DNA of 64,000 nucleotides from an uncultured Pedosphaera sp. (lineage in GTDB: Bacteria; Verrucomicrobiota; Verrucomicrobiia; Limisphaerales; Pedosphaeraceae): positions 1 through 64,000 of the forward strand of contig CAIXFN010000014.1 of assembly GCA_903918755.1 (NCBI GenBank), read 5' to 3'. The stretch's first letter is position 1, and the number at the start of each line of letters is the position of its first letter. The notes under the pieces were generated by a model. That model worked only from the letters and a program-made list of their open reading frames with translations, had not been told where the DNA came from and searched no databases. Below, piece by piece: positions 50,185 through 58,421 of this stretch. The translations under genes and the position numbers were made by a program.

Positions 50185-50660
50185 CGCGGGTTGCCGAGGG
50201 TGGGGGTGGAGCCGAGGCCGCCAAAACTCATGCCCTGCGGGGAGTCGGGACGATAGAACAGGACGCTGATATGGGATTCGTTGGCGGCACCGCCATGCCG
50301 GCGATAAACCGCGACGTCCACCTGGAACAGGCCGTTGCTGGCCACCTGGGTGATCTGGCGGGTCCACTCGTAATCGGGGTAGATGTCCCCGAAATTGCCG
50401 GACTCGGAGCCTTCGTAAAACTTGTTGGTGAGGGAAAGTTCACCGAGCACCATTTCGGGGTCCACCTGGCTCTGCTGCAACAATTTGGCGTTGCGGATGT
50501 TGGTGGAAACGAGGGACAAGATGGCGAAAATGGCCATGAAGAAGATCGCCATGGCGATCATGACCTCCATGAGAGTGAACGCACCTTCGGGAGTCAACCG
50601 GCGGCACCGGGAGCCGGGGCGGGAGAGGAGCCGACGGGAGTTGGCGGAGGGCGTGGTCAT
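50181..50660 (-). CDS. gspI: Type II secretion minor pseudopilin GspI
   Basis: The ATG at 50660 (MTTPSANSRRLLSRPG) gives 159 residues with a prepilin cleavage region, PEGAFTLMEVMIAMAIFFMA, then GspI-type sequence with IRNAKLLQQSQVDPE and ITQVASNGLFQVDVAVY. It partners GspJ and GspK at the pseudopilus tip and overlaps gspH and gspJ by 4 bases. Confidence 0.86.
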   Translation of the reverse strand: MTTPSANSRRLLSRPGSRCRRLTPEGAFTLMEVMIAMAIFFMAIFAILSLVSTNIRNAKLLQQSQVDPEMVLGELSLTNKFYEGSESGNFGDIYPDYEWTRQITQVASNGLFQVDVAVYRRHGGAANESHISVLFYRPDSPQGMSFGGLGSTPTLGNPR

Positions 50661-51292
50661 GGGAAAGGGCCGACATCCGGGAGGCCGGTGACGAGTTCGA
50701 GGGAAATCTTGCGCCATTCGCCGTTGTCGCCATGCAGGACGAGGGTGAATTCATCACTGGTGCCATTGCCGTAAAACCGGACGACAGCTTCCTCGGTGTC
50801 CTTGCGTTCGACAAAATTCACGTCGAGCATTTCGATCCGGACACTTTGGGGGATTTGGGCGGTGGCCCCGGTGCCCATTTGATGCGCGCCGATCATGGCG
50901 GCGGGATCGGGCGTTTCCCCCGAGCCGGAGGGCGTGGCGGCGGACATGTCAGCCAGTTTCTTCCGCGGGGGCGGGTTGGAATTGCGGTTGGCGAATTGAT
51001 CGAACTGAGTTTGGGGGGTGCGGTCCACCACGGGGGCCGGGGTGCTGATGGTCAGCCGGCCATCGCCGGGACGGATATGCAACTCCACGACATTGCCCTT
51101 CATGATGGCGCGAGAACGGGCTTCGAGGCAAATGCTCACGACATCCGAGACCGTGGTGGCGAGGGATTCCTTGCGCACCATGCGGTAAATGGCGGGGATG
51201 CCGATGCTCATGACCAGGCCCAAAATGGCGACCACCACCATGATCTCGATCAAGGTGAAGCCGCGGGCCACGTGAGAGCGGGAGGGGCGCAT
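50657..51292 (-). CDS. gspH: Type II secretion pseudopilin GspH
   Basis: The 211-residue protein begins MRPSRSHVARGFTLIEIMVV with the classical Gly-Phe cleavage site and Glu+5. The GspH/FimT-type C-terminal half is present (VRIEMLDVNFVERKDTE, VVRFYGNGTSDEFTLVL). Its start overlaps the gspF stop by one base and its stop overlaps the gspI start by 4 bases. Confidence 0.87.
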   Translation of the reverse strand: MRPSRSHVARGFTLIEIMVVVAILGLVMSIGIPAIYRMVRKESLATTVSDVVSICLEARSRAIMKGNVVELHIRPGDGRLTISTPAPVVDRTPQTQFDQFANRNSNPPPRKKLADMSAATPSGSGETPDPAAMIGAHQMGTGATAQIPQSVRIEMLDVNFVERKDTEEAVVRFYGNGTSDEFTLVLHGDNGEWRKISLELVTGLPDVGPFP

Positions 51293-52584
51293 CAGCGGGA
51301 AATGTTGGAGGTCATGGCGAACATGGCGGAGAGCACGCTGAGCAGGAGGAACGCGACACCGGCGGCCATGACGACAATCATGACCGGTTCGATGAGGTCC
51401 ATCATGACCTTCAGGGCGATGGCCAGTTCGTTTTCGTACGTATCGGCGATGTTTTGGAGGGCGCCGGGCACATTGCCGGTTTCCTCGCCGATCTTGAGGA
51501 GGTCAATCATCAACTGCGGGAAGATTTTGCTGCGATGCAGCGGTTGGGCGATGGTTTTGCCGTCGGTGACCTCCTCGCGAGTCTTGGCGATGGCTTCCTT
51601 GACGATGCGGTTGGGGATGATCTGCTCGGAGATTTCAAGGGCGGTGAGGACCGGGACGCCGTTTTCCAGGAGGGTGGAAAGGGTGCGGGCGAATTGGCCG
51701 AAGAGATTCAATCGGACCGCCTTGCCGAAGACGGGCGCGTTCATCATCCAGCTGTCGATCTTGCGTTTGCCCGCTTCAGTGGCCTGGAAGCGCTTGAACA
51801 CGGCCGCCGAAATGCCCACGACCAGGAGCATGAGCCACCAATAATCGCGAAAGACATTGCTGATGCCGATGAGGATGCGGGTGGCCAGGGGCAGTTCGAT
51901 CTGCATGCCGTCGAAAATCTTCATGAAGGTGGGGAGCATCTTGGTCATGAAGAAAAACATGATCAGGACACCCACCCCGGCGACGAAGGCGGGATAGATG
52001 AGGGCGGAGCTGAACTTGGACTGGACCTGGGCGAATTTCTCGAAATGATCGGCCAGGCGGCGGAGCACATCCACGAGGGCGCCGCTCTGTTCCCCGGCGC
52101 GGACCATGTTGACGTAGAGATTGGAAAAAATGATGGGCTGCTTGGCCATTGCGTCCGAGAGGCTCTTGCCTTCCATGACATCCTGCTTCAGGTCCTTGGT
52201 GACATTCGAGGGAATCCCTTTGGACTCCAGGTGGGTCATGCTGTTCAGGGCCACCGTGAGGGGCATGCCGGACTTGAGCAGATTGGCCATCTGCTGGGTG
52301 AAGGTGGCGAGTTCCTGGAGTTTGGGCTTGCGGGGGCGGTTCAGGTAATCGCGGATGGGGCGGGGCAGCATGACGCTGAGGTCGCGCTTGCCGGCCTTGG
52401 GTTCCGCCTCGGCTTTGGCGGCGGCGGCGGCCGCAGCGGCACTGCCCTTCACCACGTCCACCATGATGGGAAACAACCCCATGCGCTCGATCTGCACGAG
52501 CGCGGCGGCGCGGTCCGCGGCATCCAGGGTGTCGGAAACCGTCTGGCCGGTGCGCCGGCGCGCCTTATATGCAAATTGTGCCAT
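51292..52584 (-). CDS. gspF: Type II secretion inner-membrane platform protein GspF
   Basis: The 430-residue protein begins MAQFAYKARRRTGQTVSDTL and has the duplicated GspF domain: FTQQMANLLKSGMPLTVALN in the first half, QFARTLSTLLENGVPVLTAL in the second, with three membrane helices. A low-complexity Ala/Lys linker lies near 48-66. GspF links the ATPase to the pseudopilus. No gspE, gspD or prepilin peptidase is in the window, so the system is split or uses genes elsewhere. It is the first gene of the five-gene unit. Confidence 0.93.
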   Translation of the reverse strand: MAQFAYKARRRTGQTVSDTLDAADRAAALVQIERMGLFPIMVDVVKGSAAAAAAAAKAEAEPKAGKRDLSVMLPRPIRDYLNRPRKPKLQELATFTQQMANLLKSGMPLTVALNSMTHLESKGIPSNVTKDLKQDVMEGKSLSDAMAKQPIIFSNLYVNMVRAGEQSGALVDVLRRLADHFEKFAQVQSKFSSALIYPAFVAGVGVLIMFFFMTKMLPTFMKIFDGMQIELPLATRILIGISNVFRDYWWLMLLVVGISAAVFKRFQATEAGKRKIDSWMMNAPVFGKAVRLNLFGQFARTLSTLLENGVPVLTALEISEQIIPNRIVKEAIAKTREEVTDGKTIAQPLHRSKIFPQLMIDLLKIGEETGNVPGALQNIADTYENELAIALKVMMDLIEPVMIVVMAAGVAFLLLSVLSAMFAMTSNISR

Positions 52585-52651: not shown

Positions 52652-53482
52652 TCAGGCGACGGCTGCGGCGGGCAGGACCTCGTTGACGCTGCCGCGCCGG
52701 TAGCCTTGCAAGTCGAGCGTCACCTGTTGATAACCAAGGGCTTTCAGGGCGGTCGCGACCTGGCCGGGAATGCCGTCCACGAGCAGGCGCGGCAATTCGG
52801 AGGGGCCGACCTCGATGCGGGCCAATTGCCCCGTCTTCAATTCATGATGCCGGACGCGGACATCGTAGAAGCCGAGGTCGCGGAGAACGTTTTCCGCCTG
52901 TTCGATCATCGCGAGCTTTTCCGGGGTGACGGCTTCGCCGTACGGGATGCGAGAACTGAGGCAGGCCATTTGGGGTTTGTCCGCGGTGGGGAGGCCGAAA
53001 TGCGCGGAGAGTTCCCGGATTTCCGTCTTGGTCAAGCCGGCCTCCTTGAGCGGGGCGCGGACGGCAAATTCGGTGGCGGCGCGGGCGCCGGGACGGAAAT
53101 CCCCGACATCGCTGGCGTTTTCACCGTAGGCCAAGACGGCAAAGCCGCCGGAGCGGGCGAGCGGTTCCAATTCGGTGAACAGCTCATGTTTGCAGAAATA
53201 GCAGCGATTGGCGGGATTGGCGAGGTAGTCAGGATTGGTAAATTCCTGGGTTTGCACGACGCGGACCGGAAAAGCGAATTGGGCGGCCACGGCAAGGGCG
53301 TCGTCGAATTCCCGGCGGGGTAGGCTGGGGGAGTCCGCGATGGCGGCCAGGGCTTTGGCCCCGAGGACTTCATGGGCCACGAAGGCCAGAAAAACCGAAT
53401 CGACACCTCCCGAGTAGGCCACAAGGCAGGAGCCATACGAGCGGAGGAGGTCGCGCAAGTGGTTCAGTTTTTCGACATTCAC
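52652..53482 (-). CDS. larE: LarE-type ATP-dependent sulfur transferase
   Basis: The GTG at 53482 ([16 protein letters not shown]) gives 276 residues; the frame extends to 53641 but into sigma-gene sequence. A PP-loop SGGVDS (24-29) binds ATP, and cysteines in [10 protein letters not shown] and [11 protein letters not shown] match LarE. The three-cysteine pattern is that of the form using a [4Fe-4S] cluster for sulfur transfer, rather than single-cysteine sacrificial LarE; this is inference. LarE builds the nickel-pincer cofactor. LarA/B/C are not here. Confidence 0.9.
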
Positions 53483-53595
53483 CGGGCAAATTTGCCATTC
53501 TTCGAGCGGCTTGTCGAGCCGGGCGGGCGGGCGGGGAAAGGTGGGGAAAAATATTTTTGTCCGGTTTGGCGGTCCGGCGGGTTCTAATAGGTGAA

Positions 53596-55020
53596 ATGAG
53601 CGGGATGGAAAGCGCCGCGGCGCTGCGGGAATATGTGGCAACGGGATCGGACCAGGCCTTCGGGCAACTGGTGGCGCGGCATTTCGACCTGGTGTATTCG
53701 GCGGCTTTGCGGGTGGTGGGGGGTGACGCGCACCTCGCGCAGGACGTGGCCCAGGCAGTCTTTACGGATTTGGCGCGCCAGGCGGCGGGCTTGCCGGCGG
53801 GGGTGGTTTTGGGCGGATGGTTATACCGGCACACCTGTTTTGCCGCCGCCAAGGCGGTCCGAACGGAGCAACGGCGGCGGGCGCGGGAAAGGCAGGCCAT
53901 GGAATTTAAAGAGCAGAATGAGGGGGCGGCCGTGGAATTGGCCTGGCAGCAACTGGCGCCGGTGCTCGAAGAGGCGATGCGGCAGCTGAATGAAACGGAT
54001 CGCGATGCGCTGGTGCTGCGGTACTTCGAGCATCAGACGTTTCGCGGGGTGGGGGATGCGCTGGGAACCAGTGAGGACGGGGCGAGGAAACGGGTGGACC
54101 GGGCGCTGGACCGGCTCCGGATATTTTTTGGCGGGCGAGGTTTGACGGTATCGGCCACCCTGCTGGCGGAAGTTTTAAACAGCCAGGCGGTGGTGAGCGC
54201 TCCGGTGGGCATGGCGGCGAGCGTGAGTGCCGCGGCCCTGGCCGGGGCCGCGGCGGGAAGTGGGGGGATTTCGGTGACCTTGTATAAAATTATGCTGATT
54301 ACGAAAACCAAACTGGCGGGGGGCGCGGTGCTGGCGGCACTGGCGGCAACCATTGTGATTCAGTCTCAAAACACCGCCCGTTTGCGGGCGGAGCAACAGG
54401 CGCTCACGGCGCAAATTCGGCAACTGCAAGCGGACCGCGAGGCGGCCGCAAAGCCAGTGGCGGCGGCGCCACCCGTGGCGGAGCCAGCCGGGTTGAGTCC
54501 GGACCAGCAGCGGGAATTGCTGCGCCTGCGGGGGGAGGTGGGCGGATTGCGCCGGCAGGTGAGCGCGGAAAAAGCGGGCATGGAGCGGGAGCGCGACGCG
54601 CGGCAGAAGTTCGCCGCCGATCCGGTGGCGGCGCAGGTGGCGGCCAAGGAACTGGCGATCGCCAAGATGAATTATGGCAAGGAGTGGGCGCTGGCGTTTC
54701 TTATGACCGCCAACGATTTCAACGGGCAATTTCCGACGAATTTTGATCAGGCTACGCCGTATCTGCAAAACAAGGGGAAGGGACAGACCAATCTCACGAC
54801 GGAACAATTCGAAATCACCTACCAGGGTATGATGGATGCCATGGATAGCCCCAGTGCCACCATCTTAATCCGCGAGAAAGAGGCGGTGCAGGATCCGGTT
54901 TCCGGCAAATGGGCTCGAACTTATGTTTTTGGCGACGGGCACGTGGAGATTCACAGCGAACCGGACGGGAATTTTGAGACCTGGGAAAGCACCCGGATTC
55001 AGAAGCCAACAGTTAAATAG
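53596..55020 (+). CDS. ECF-type sigma factor with C-terminal membrane helix and extracytoplasmic domain
   Basis: The ATG at 53596 ([16 protein letters not shown]) gives 474 residues. Region 2 (about 18-85, [36 protein letters not shown]) and region 4 (about 125-178, [20 protein letters not shown], then a helix-turn-helix) are complete. Then follow a linker (about 185-230), a membrane helix (about 238-257), a coiled-coil-rich Ala/Gln stretch (260-330) and a C-terminal domain with [18 protein letters not shown]. The last part resembles the DGH-type end of pseudopilin-like proteins. Such tails occur on verrucomicrobial ECFs and may sense envelope signals. Confidence 0.9.
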
Positions 55021-55028
55021 CCTTCGTC

Positions 55029-55754
55029 ATGGGAAAGTTTTGGCGAACGGGCGAAGTAATTGTGGGGACGGGACTGGTGATCGGCCTGGTCATGCAATAT
55101 CAGGCGAAACGGAAGCAACAGGAGGCGGTGGCGGAATTACGCCGGCAGGCGGAGGAGTTGGCGGCGTCGCCGCAGCCGGTGGCGACCCAGCCGGTAAAGT
55201 TGCCGGCGGCCCCGGCGAGGGTTGAGGCGGCCAAAGCGGAACGGCAGGCGGAATTGGAGCGGTTACGGGCGGAGGCGGAGGCTTTGAAGCGGCAACGGGC
55301 GGACATTGCCGGCCAGCGCGCGGCGGAACTGGCGCGCAGTCAGGCACTGGCGGCGGAGCAGGCGGCGGCGGGCGACAGTTTCACCCGGGAGTGGGAGGAG
55401 AAAGCGCAGCATTTTCAGCATTGGATGCAGGTTTTTCTGCTCTACTCGGAGGAAGTGAAGGGGCGCGCGCCGGCGGATTTTCAGCAATTGCGCGAGTTGC
55501 TGCCGGCGGAGGCGAGAGCGGAGACGGATCTGATGGCCCGGAACTTTGAATTTGTTTACCGGGGCGCGTTGGCGGATCTGCCCAATCCCCATCAATATAT
55601 GGTGTTGCGTCTAACAGCCCCGGTCCAGACTCCGGGGAAGGGCACCTGGCTGAAACTTTATTTCATGGGGGATGGGGAAGCGCATGCGGAGTCGTCCCCG
55701 GATGGGAATTTCACGGTGTGGGAAAGGCAGCATCAACCGCCGCCGGCGAGGTGA
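55029..55754 (+). CDS. Membrane-anchored coiled-coil protein sharing the sigma factor's C-terminal domain
   Basis: The 241-residue protein starts 8 bases after the sigma stop. An N-terminal membrane helix (about 8-24) and a coiled coil (about 30-115) lead to a C-terminal domain with YFMGDGEAHAESSPDGNFTV. This matches the sigma factor's [16 protein letters not shown] end and the topology that follows the sigma part, but sigma regions are absent. It may be a duplicate of the sensor portion that modulates the sigma factor; this is inference. Confidence 0.75.
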   Translation: MGKFWRTGEVIVGTGLVIGLVMQYQAKRKQQEAVAELRRQAEELAASPQPVATQPVKLPAAPARVEAAKAERQAELERLRAEAEALKRQRADIAGQRAAELARSQALAAEQAAAGDSFTREWEEKAQHFQHWMQVFLLYSEEVKGRAPADFQQLRELLPAEARAETDLMARNFEFVYRGALADLPNPHQYMVLRLTAPVQTPGKGTWLKLYFMGDGEAHAESSPDGNFTVWERQHQPPPAR

Positions 55755-56152: not shown

Positions 56153-56266
56153 TCATAGGGGACGATCGCTTCGCGATTCGTGGTGCCCCGAGGAGAGGGG
56201 TTTGCGGCATTCAGCCGTGGGGGAGTAACCTTGCTCAAGAACTTGTTCGCTAGTGTCCAGAATCAT
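56153..56266 (-). pseudogene. vapC toxin remnant
   Basis: ATG at 56266 overlaps the antitoxin TGA as ATGA. The first six codons read MILDTS, the usual start of VapC PIN-domain toxins with its first acidic residue. The reading frame then continues in sequence unlike any PIN domain (EQVLEQGYSPTAE) and stops at 56153, giving 37 residues. The rest of the toxin (normally about 130 residues) is missing. Confidence 0.55.
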
Positions 56267-56496
56267 CGCAAAGCCTCCGGCCATTCCTCGGCGGACAGGG
56301 TTTCCGTCGGATCGTATCCGATCAGAATTTTTCGCAAGACCGGATGGGTTCGGGAGCGTTTGTGGGGGCGGTGCGGTACCAGATCGGCCACCGGGACCCC
56401 GTTGCGGCAGATGGTGATCACGTGACGGTCCTGCACCAATTTGGCCAGCAGGCGGGAAAGATTGGTTTTAGCTTCATGGACACTTACCCGGTTCAT
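56263..56496 (-). CDS. Phd/YefM-type antitoxin
   Basis: The 77-residue protein from ATG 56496 (MNRVSVHEAKTNLSRLLAKL) is a typical Phd/YefM antitoxin: a DNA-binding N-terminus with VHEAKTNLSRLL and HVITICRNGVPVADL, then a flexible C-terminal toxin-binding tail (ETLSAEEWPEALR). It should repress its own promoter. Its partner is only a remnant, so it is an orphan antitoxin here. Confidence 0.88.
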   Translation of the reverse strand: MNRVSVHEAKTNLSRLLAKLVQDRHVITICRNGVPVADLVPHRPHKRSRTHPVLRKILIGYDPTETLSAEEWPEALR

Positions 56497-56620
56497 GGGA
56501 AGTATTTTAGCCCAGCGATTTTGGTTCGTCAAAAGCCTTGGAAGCGGCCGAGCGAGCCAACCGCGGCGGGGAGCGCGGGGAACCGGCCTGCCGGCCAATT
56601 CCCCGCGCGTCGGTTGCTGC

Positions 56621-57247
56621 CTAATTGATGGCCGCGGGGGACATCGCGCCGACGTGGTTGTCCATGAAGACGACGTTCCGGCCGGGTTGGGGCGAGCGGG
56701 GGTGGAAGGTGTCGTAGTCCACGAAGAGCGGGGTGGTGGTGGGCTCGAAGCGCAAATGGAAGGTGCCGTTGGTGGAGGTGGTGCCTTCCGGCCCGATGCG
56801 GATCATGACGAACTGGTGCTCGGCGGAGATGGTTTCATCCATGCGATGGCCGTTGAGGGTGGTGTCCCACTGATAACTGGAGCCCTCGGAATTGTAGCGG
56901 CCGGTGTTGTCCGCGGGGCATTTGAAGACGCCGACGGAGTTGGTGCCGGGGTTGGTTTTGCCCACATACGGCCCGAGGACATCGCAAATGCGCGGGAGGG
57001 GCGCGGCGGGGTCCATGGGCAGGGTGGGGAGGAGTTCGGCGCTCGGGAGGAGGTTGTTGTTGTCATCCGTGTAGGAACGGGTGGCGATGCCCAACTGCCG
57101 GAGCTGGCTGAGGCAGGCCGTGTTGCGGGCGCGGTCCTTGGCCCGGGCCAGGGTGGGGAGCAAAAGGGCGGCCAGAATGCCGATGATGGCAATGACGACC
57201 AGGAGTTCCACGAGCGTGAAGGCGCGGCGGGAAGGGGTACGGTTCAT
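56621..57247 (-). CDS. Pseudopilin-like secreted protein
   Basis: The 208-residue protein starts at ATG 57247 ([20 protein letters not shown]) with a prepilin-type leader. It ends with [14 protein letters not shown], of the H-X9-DG class. There is a FKCPADNTG segment typical of the group. No secretion genes are directly adjacent, but the Gsp unit is 4.7 kb away. Confidence 0.9.
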
Positions 57248-57278
57248 GGCGGGTATTTTTCTTGGGGTGGGTGAAGAC

Positions 57279-58421
57279 CTACTTCGCGGGGCCCTGCATT
57301 TCGCGCATTTGACGGGCGCGGAGGACCTGCTGTTCGGGAGTGAGTTTGCCAATGCCGCCAAGCTCGTTGCGTTTGCTTTCGGCCTGCATGGCGGCCATGG
57401 GGTCATTGGTGCCGTTCCGACCTTTGCCCTGGGGCATATCCAGGCGCATGGTCATCATCCCGCCGATCGGGGGCTTCTCGAGGGTGTAATACGTGGCGTA
57501 TTGGCCGTGGACCTTGGCGGCGGCAGCGGTGGCGGTTTGGCGACTGGCTTTGGTGGGGATTTCATCCCCGAGTTGCGGGCTGAGCCGGGTGACCATAGCC
57601 AGGCGTTCCTGGCTCCAATGATCCTCCTCAATCACCGCGCCGTCGGGGCCGGTTTTGGTCACCGTGACGTGTTCGCCATCGGCATCGGAGACCGTGCTGG
57701 TCGTGGTGGTGGAGGTGACGGCCCCGTCGGCCCCCTTGGCCATGCGAACCATGACACGTTTCTGGACATGATCCATGTCGCCACCGTGCCCGCCGGGACC
57801 AGGACCGGGGCCCCCGCGACGAATGACAAAGGCACCCTTAGGGGCATCGCCGGGGGCGATATTGACATCGTCCGTATTCAGGACAACCGCGCCCGGGGGC
57901 AGTTGGTCCTTGAGCAATTTTTGCAATTCGGCGGGGTTTTCGATGACCGCGCCGCCTTTGTCATCCCCCAAGACAATCCGGCCGGGACCGCCGCCCCCCG
58001 CGGCGAGTTTGGAAAAATCGACGGGCTCGGATTTGGCGAATTGGGGTGCGAGGTTGGTCCAGCCGGCGGCTTCGAGGGAGGTGCCGCCATGCAGGGTGCT
58101 TTCGAATTGACCGAGGGCGCCCGGGGAATCGTAAACGGCATAGGTGCGGCTCCAGCGGGCGCCGACCTGTTCCGCGATTTGGGCCAGCACATTGGTCAGG
58201 GGCAAGTTGTTGCAATCGAGGGTGATTTTGCCGTCCAATTTGGGATCAATCTGAAGGTGGTCGCGAATCTGGTGGGCGATTTTATTGCTTACTTCCGCGA
58301 GCGGGGCGTTGCGGACGTGGAGCGTGATAAAGTCGTGGCGGGCGAGCCAGACGCCGCGGCCATACCAGGCGGCACCGGCGAGGGCCAAACCAGCGCCGAG
58401 GGCAAGATACGTTGATTTCAT
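57279..58421 (-). CDS. Membrane-anchored STN-domain protein
   Basis: The 380-residue protein has an N-terminal membrane helix (about 5-20) and a secretin/TonB short N-terminal (STN)-like domain (about 31-98): [20 protein letters not shown], then [21 protein letters not shown] Gly/Asp-rich middle and a repeated [13 protein letters not shown] stretch follow, then a conserved-looking C-terminal part ([28 protein letters not shown]). Such domains occur in secretins and signalling receptors, but no channel domain follows here. Function unknown; it precedes a pseudopilin gene 31 bases downstream and may be in its operon. Confidence 0.78.

Follow-up and report, generated by a model that had tools for sequence, protein, structure and literature searches.

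A membrane-tailed ECF sigma factor and its sigma-less sibling in Limisphaerales: a candidate self-inducing pair

How might a sigma factor be controlled when its own C-terminal tail ties it to the membrane, and what could be the role of an adjoining gene that encodes the same kind of tail without a sigma part? The question is raised by two forward-strand genes in the window analyzed here, a stretch of 64,000 nucleotides that is part of contig C14 of a 7.19 Mb genome (G000). The reading that we prefer, to which we assign a probability of about one half, is that the sigma factor would be tethered to the membrane and self-inducing, its release being set by mixed coiled-coil dimers formed with the sibling.

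The first gene (53596-55020, + strand, ATG at 53596 and stop at 55018-55020) encodes a protein of 474 amino acids, P0001, and is preceded immediately 5' of its ATG by AGGTGAA, which by eye is ribosome-site-like. By its domains P0001 is an ECF (group 4) sigma factor, with Pfam matches above cut-off to region 2 (Sigma70_r2, PF04542, aa 25-94, 53668-53877), only just so at 24.8 bits against 24 (E 1.9e-5), and to region 4 (Sigma70_r4, PF04545, aa 127-175, 53974-54120, E 4.2e-10), as well as an NCBIfam match to TIGR02937 of 58.6 bits for a cut-off of 42.9; neither region 3 nor region 1.2 is among the six Pfam families listed. Beyond region 4 the alignment delimits an Ala/Gly-rich linker (aa 185-233, 54148-54294) that is without a confident fold and in which P203 is invariant across 24 aligned proteins. 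Hydropathy, which peaks at 2.04 near aa 240-256 in a 17-residue window, then locates a membrane helix (about aa 239-257, 54310-54366); after it come a coil signature (aa 307-319, 54514-54552) agreeing with the motif described below at 8/8 positions and a pilin-like head (aa 347-474, 54634-55017) delimited from a structure model together with structure and profile comparison. A C-terminal membrane helix after region 4, as in ECF48, ECF52 and ECF53, is therefore present. No zinc-finger or anti-sigma domain between sigma part and membrane is found among the six Pfam families listed at E 1, nor in P0001 among the 25 listed of 57 NCBIfam families, and no SnoaL-like extension of the ECF41 kind is matched among the Pfam families listed. 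In the full-length structure model (pTM 0.37) the sigma part and the head are confident, with predicted helices at 245-288, 302-340 and 343-374 and then the head to 474. The linker is not confidently docked onto the sigma part, and because aa 201-260 are poorly predicted (pLDDT <50) the model shows no inhibited state. Pfam, hydropathy and structure model agree with the domain plan given by the sequence-only reading, namely a sigma factor with regions 2 and 4, a membrane helix, a coiled coil and a C-terminal head.

Eight nucleotides, an operon-like spacing, separate the sigma stop from the ATG (55029) of the second gene (55029-55754, + strand), which encodes the sigma-less sibling P0002 of 241 aa. 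Its hydropathy peak begins at aa 5-10, marking a membrane helix (about aa 8-26, 55050-55106), and is followed by the coil signature ELERLRAEAEALK (aa 75-87, 55251-55289, 8/8 positions) and by a head (about aa 113-241, 55365-55751) that BLASTP and a head tree show to be kin to that of the sigma factor, with MGDGEAHAESSPDGNF near its C-terminal end. P0002 has no Pfam or NCBIfam match above cut-off. Its tail is 30-32% identical to the sigma tail by BLASTP (E 1e-22) and 32-33% identical in genome searches, a likeness far beyond chance; together with the helix and the coil signature this bears out the earlier view of the adjoining gene as the same tail minus sigma. We rejected an anti-sigma role for the sibling, as there is no domain ahead of its helix: fewer than ten residues precede it, and no cytoplasmic anti-sigma domain is listed for it.

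On the minus strand around the pair lie a frame, divergent from the sigma gene, that we take to be LarE-like (52652-53641), two genes presumably related to type II secretion (50657-52584), one a GspH-like prepilin and the other a GspF-like membrane protein, and a frame that we assume to resemble a Phd/YefM antitoxin (56263-56598). Converging on the pair, also on the minus strand, is a pseudopilin gene (56621-57406) with a match to the prepilin motif TIGR02532 and a sub-threshold match to GspG (TIGR01710, E 4.8e-11). Among frames of at least 100 aa between 44000 and 64000 only the pair and frames overlying it matched any of four fetched loci (L114, L086, L096, L092). Since no other frame did so, the flanks share only the pair, and a conserved wider neighborhood was rejected.

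The structure model of the tail consists of long helices and a small head (pLDDT 83.8, pTM 0.60). The top match of the head among solved structures is the type IV pilin PilA4, with Z 6.3 and rmsd 9.0 over 114 aligned residues, which is below the level taken as proof of fold; the remaining pilins score Z 2.4-3.7, no better than unrelated entries such as Cbl domains, and Foldseek returned nothing for the head at E 0.001 or better. Profile comparison gave a pseudopilin match of 95.5% probability (E 1.4e-8) over 33 columns, with two control profiles below 1%. The head thus resembles extracytoplasmic pseudopilins, in a match that is weak and partial. Like type IV pilins and type II pseudopilins, the tail combines a long helix with a small sheet and is similar in the first part of the head, but the prepilin cleavage motif TIGR02532 is not among the six families listed for the sibling, and P0001 begins with sigma region 2, so that a prepilin N-terminus is not found there either. 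Two other assignments were rejected: a known Pfam domain, for which 21 fusion tails gave 65 weak families (best E 1.1e-4), the 25 listed of them looking like coiled-coil matches, and a known solved relative by sequence, for which there were 23 matches, mainly within the coil (best E 9e-4).

In order to gauge recurrence, tailed sigma genes were counted in 80 fetched regions wherever 700 nt or more of downstream sequence was present. Among rank-chosen regions 13 of 49 sigma genes with the same head have a sigma-less membrane-coil gene directly downstream (11/47 when two pairs met in widened regions, L101 at 10730 and L137 at 4213, are dropped), and 36/49 do not. In partly hand-picked regions the downstream sibling is found at 5/11 sigma genes with this head. 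For sigma genes with other heads the counts are 3/5 and 6/7, which are biased as these loci were mostly located through the sibling's head. With picked loci included and the window's own pair left out, the total is 27 pairs from 21 genomes belonging to 13 families. For nine of these pairs the earliest start of the sibling lies -3 to 4 nt from the last base of the sigma gene. A sibling-type gene also occurs upstream of seven sigma genes, several of these between two sigma genes, L107 being a clear upstream case. Conservation of the pair, which had been suggested as a check, therefore came out divided: the pair recurs, and its second gene is not obligatory. The sibling is a real, recurrent yet optional partner.

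The sibling query found matches in 32/116 genomes, its own included, mostly within larger open frames. The pairing recurs even though sigma-less membrane-coil genes are few, about 5 to 20 per genome, a figure that includes tailed sigma genes. A model of the 21 fusion tails, searched with at most nine candidates scored in nearly every genome, matched 259/293 genomes of the order at E 0.001, which is to be taken as an upper figure because weak matches may be ordinary pseudopilins, these also being touched by the head model. In a draw of 194 genomes from the phylum the sole match at 1e-20 was the window's own genome. The relatives are metagenome genomes, most of 28 loci being labelled Verrucomicrobia, Verrucomicrobiales or Limisphaerales, the last an order of Verrucomicrobiota. 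Sigma genes of this class also occur in clusters with tandem sigma-less tails (L101 and L150 in genome G143, L123 and L146 in G105), that of L101 holding up to four such sigma genes.

The heads of the partners vary. Pilin-like, DUF4878, TPR-like and secretin-like types are found. DUF4878 narrowly exceeds its cut-off in L092 and L181, the latter without a sigma neighbor, and is weaker elsewhere; TPR_19 (E 0.007) and PF00263 (E 0.0012) are both below cut-off. Two membrane-coil proteins of the window's own genome, L184 on contig C35 and L185 on C52, have C-terminal parts that look secretin-like by eye; L185 has no secretin match, and it is a similar protein in L097 that gives the sub-threshold PF00263 match. 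By the head model the sibling lacks the sigma's head in 8 of 18 pairs that have this sigma head, so that the idea of a duplicated sensory half does not hold as a general rule. The same count bears on the proposal that the sibling does no more than compete, as a decoy tail that captures the sensory ligand or a protease so that the sigma factor stays silent. The related heads of the window pair and its operon-like 8 nt spacing would suit a decoy, but partners with different heads would not compete for the same ligand, and we regard this explanation as quite improbable.

How old the two tails are was assessed from a head tree made by a quick method (93 rows, 126 columns), in which 44 of 90 inner branches are open and gain and loss are indistinguishable. 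In it the sibling of the window clusters with its counterpart from a genome of the same genus (SH-aLRT 99; 42% identity over 118 head columns), and the window sigma tail with the sigma tail of that same genome (SH-aLRT 90). As each half groups with its counterpart, the two kinds of head parted before those two genomes did, and a recent local duplication of the tail is rejected. The word duplicated, as used in the sequence-only reading, is then correct as common descent of related tails and incorrect as a recent local event. Sigma and sibling labels change 16 times on the tree, at least five of these by starred branches, against 24 in shuffles, and two further supported sibling clades contain four siblings from three families (SH-aLRT 95) and seven from five families (SH-aLRT 99). 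From this tree the pairs appear old in several lineages and to have arisen or been rearranged more than once. A decaying duplicate without function could account for the low identity of 30-33% to the sigma tail, but the frame is open, the motifs are conserved, the same-genus counterpart exists and the two clades span three and five families, leaving decay as a very remote prospect.

What the partners keep in common is the membrane helix together with a coil motif, ELxRLRxEVxxLR, whose register runs g-a-b-c-d-e-f-g-a-b-c-d-e, where E occupies g and R or K occupies e. Positions g and e' of a parallel coiled-coil dimer would face each other. Agreement at 7 or 8 of 8 positions is found in 74/79 sigma tails, 29/32 siblings with the head and 9/12 siblings with other heads, for a shuffled mean of 4.6-4.8, a count that is partly circular since the motif was part of the model by which the proteins were located. 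In the window's own genome the coil model finds ten genes at E 0.001, comprising four tailed sigma genes, the window sibling, two genes of a cassette described below and three lone genes (L179, L185, L191). The motif is not specific to sigma control, as these three have no sigma match in fetched flanks of about 4.5 kb. In three sigma-less membrane-coil genes (L180, L183, L192) the longest frame opens with LWVQLPPRAP, a sequence that may be read-through of an adjacent tRNA gene.

According to the mechanism that we propose, the C-terminal helix of the sigma factor would anchor it in the inner membrane, and the coiled coil and the pilin-like head would project out of the cytoplasm. The sibling tail, encoded in the same operon, would pair with the sigma tail in mixed parallel coiled-coil dimers, so contributing another sensory head and making sigma-sigma dimers rarer. 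Once the heads received a signal the sigma domain would be freed, most simply by a cut near the membrane, and the freed sigma factor would use a promoter before its own gene, giving more sigma and more partner and hence self-induction with built-in damping. In a 19-residue window the membrane helix exceeds 1.6 in 18 of the 24 aligned proteins. The proposed topology is made less certain by P0001, in which the linker is as hydrophobic as the membrane helix (1.71 vs 1.59 in the same window); linkers above 1.6 occur in 7/24 proteins, that of the window among them. Nor is there much difference in net charge between the two sides of the helices of 41 siblings (mean 1.59 vs 1.05).

The window's own genome holds an unfused version as well (G000:C107, L174), one of five found in eight genomes of the family, in which a free sigma factor is followed by two membrane-coil proteins. 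Its first gene encodes a free ECF sigma factor of 181-188 aa. The product of the second is a membrane protein in which about 55 residues lead up to the helix; a coil comes next, and then a pseudopilin-like head that the head model matches in 4/5; DUF1559 is matched below cut-off in two of three scanned (E 0.004 and 0.013). The N-terminus of this second protein gave E 1.8e-4, 0.043 and 0.002 with the anti-sigma model NF052375 in the three of five second proteins scanned, from three related genomes, all below its 100-bit cut-off. The third gene product, again of the membrane-coil kind, has a head that by eye is DUF4878-like, with a match in one of two scanned (E 0.003, below cut-off). The two membrane-coil partners are thus a recurring pair, in a gene order (L174-L178) comparable to that of classical ECF and membrane anti-sigma pairs, whereas in the window the sigma factor is covalently tailed and the sibling has fewer than ten residues before its membrane helix. 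The weakly anti-sigma-like N-terminus of the second protein bridges the fused and unfused designs, so that the difference from classical anti-sigma factors claimed earlier stands for the window pair, in which no anti-sigma domain was found, and is softened by the cassette in the same genome.

These partners are relevant to another explanation, in which the sigma tail would act alone as a homodimer and the sibling would merely be a target gene, acting elsewhere, for example in envelope or secretion. The 36 same-head sigma genes without a downstream sibling would be understandable on such grounds, as would sigma-less coil proteins without sigma neighbors, and according to PMC3426412 neighboring genes are the only detectable targets of ECF41. 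Yet the sibling retains membrane helix and coil motif whatever its head, and the unfused cassette repeatedly contains two partners of this kind; we consider a mere target gene a credible though improbable alternative.

Self-induction as we propose it would require a promoter. A promoter-like element, ATTTTTGTCCGGTTTGGCGGTCCGGCGGGTTCTAA, lies at 53553-53587 (+ strand), ends 8 nt before the sigma start, follows the pattern TGTCCGGTTT-N8-GGCGGGT and has the best weight-matrix score of the 64 kb (39.1). By a count of spaced trinucleotide pairs TGT-N16-CGG occurs in 43/85 upstream regions versus 5.8 expected, and 59 of 69 loose element matches sit 23-45 nt before the approximate start, the other ten elsewhere. 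In a two-fold test, with a weight matrix trained on one half of the loci and applied to the remaining ones, 71/84 upstream regions scored above 14 versus 1/84 reversed controls (75 vs 7 at a threshold of 12 and 66 vs 0 at 18), a test that is not wholly independent as the collecting pattern was drawn from all loci and some are from sister genomes. Over 129 loci (1.14 Mb), which include the training set and some overlap, there are 107 raw matches above 18 versus 6 in reversed sequence, and 85 distinct matches at class sigma genes with 12 elsewhere. Away from sigma genes the 49 matches above 14 hardly exceed the reversed control of 41 and by this scoring are at control level. At a threshold of 12 the element is found at 92/108 class sigma genes, in loci with the same inclusions, and at 0/10 short free ECF-like genes. 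With up to three mismatches it occurs twice in the window's own genome, here and before a tailed sigma gene on contig C31 (control 0), and a looser pattern gives seven rows at six sites, two of them at tailed sigma genes, versus four in the control. Of seven other long-tailed sigma genes of this genome that were fetched with flanks, all outside the training set, five score above 12 and three above 18. We infer that P0001 reads the element at 53553-53587.

Alternatively, the element could be an operator of another regulator that the sigma factor does not read. Close copies in the own genome are confined to two tailed sigma genes, which leaves a wider regulon unexplained and would sit well with an operator. 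Several features argue otherwise: the element lies right before the start codon, its TGT(C) box is 16 nt from a second conserved block, in a layout comparable to the ECF41 promoter TGTCACA-n16-CGTC (PMC3426412), and none of the ten short free ECF-like genes of these loci gave a match to it. An operator seems to us unlikely.

Attachment of a sigma factor to the membrane through its own tail has precedents, few of which have been studied. As described in excerpts of PMC8999054 and PMC5826349, the actinobacterial groups ECF52, ECF48 and ECF53 (SCO4117) have a C-terminal membrane region, with an outside domain in ECF52, and release by proteolysis is expected. P0001 shares with them an ECF sigma factor with a C-terminal membrane region, but they carry a zinc-finger, likely anti-sigma, domain, none of which was found in P0001, and the excerpts mention for them neither a coiled coil nor an adjoining sigma-less tail, both present in the P0001 pair. 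IutY (ECF243) of Pseudomonas putida is likewise, in the excerpt of PMC8999054, a sigma factor fused to a membrane regulatory part and cut to free sigma, but there the fused part is a membrane anti-sigma factor of iron-starvation signalling, while the P0001 tail joins a coil to a pilin-like head. ECF41 has a C-terminal extension in place of an anti-sigma factor, a TGTC-type box and a conserved promoter motif at its own locus (PMC3426412); P0001 resembles it in extension, TGTC-type box and conserved element at its own locus, but ECF41 tails are SnoaL-like (PMC8999054, same excerpt), whereas the P0001 class has a membrane helix and other heads. Literature titles and abstract openings contained no Verrucomicrobial membrane-tailed ECF factor with a sigma-less partner; the main ECF re-classification was outside their reach, so absence in print is not thereby established. 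What the Limisphaerales class adds is the adjoining sigma-less tail gene, the swapped sensory heads and the conserved element at the sigma gene, with fused and unfused designs held in one genome. Two questions become open to direct test: does coil pairing between sigma and partner determine activity, and can the transcription driven by a sigma factor be devoted mainly to the circuit that controls it?

More tentatively still, and rather doubtfully, the pair may belong to an order-wide mix-and-match family of self-transcribing ECF sigma factors and sigma-less partners that share one coiled-coil code (acidic g, basic e'). Paralogous tails with different sensory heads would form mixed membrane dimers, the same class of promoter element would lie at each sigma gene, and sigma-less partners would set thresholds.

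A minor observation concerns contig C83 of the own genome, where a short-tailed sigma gene of 338 aa (L208, 4154-5170) has a prepilin-type (pseudopilin) gene on the same strand about 22 nt behind it, an arrangement that we considered as a link to secretion.
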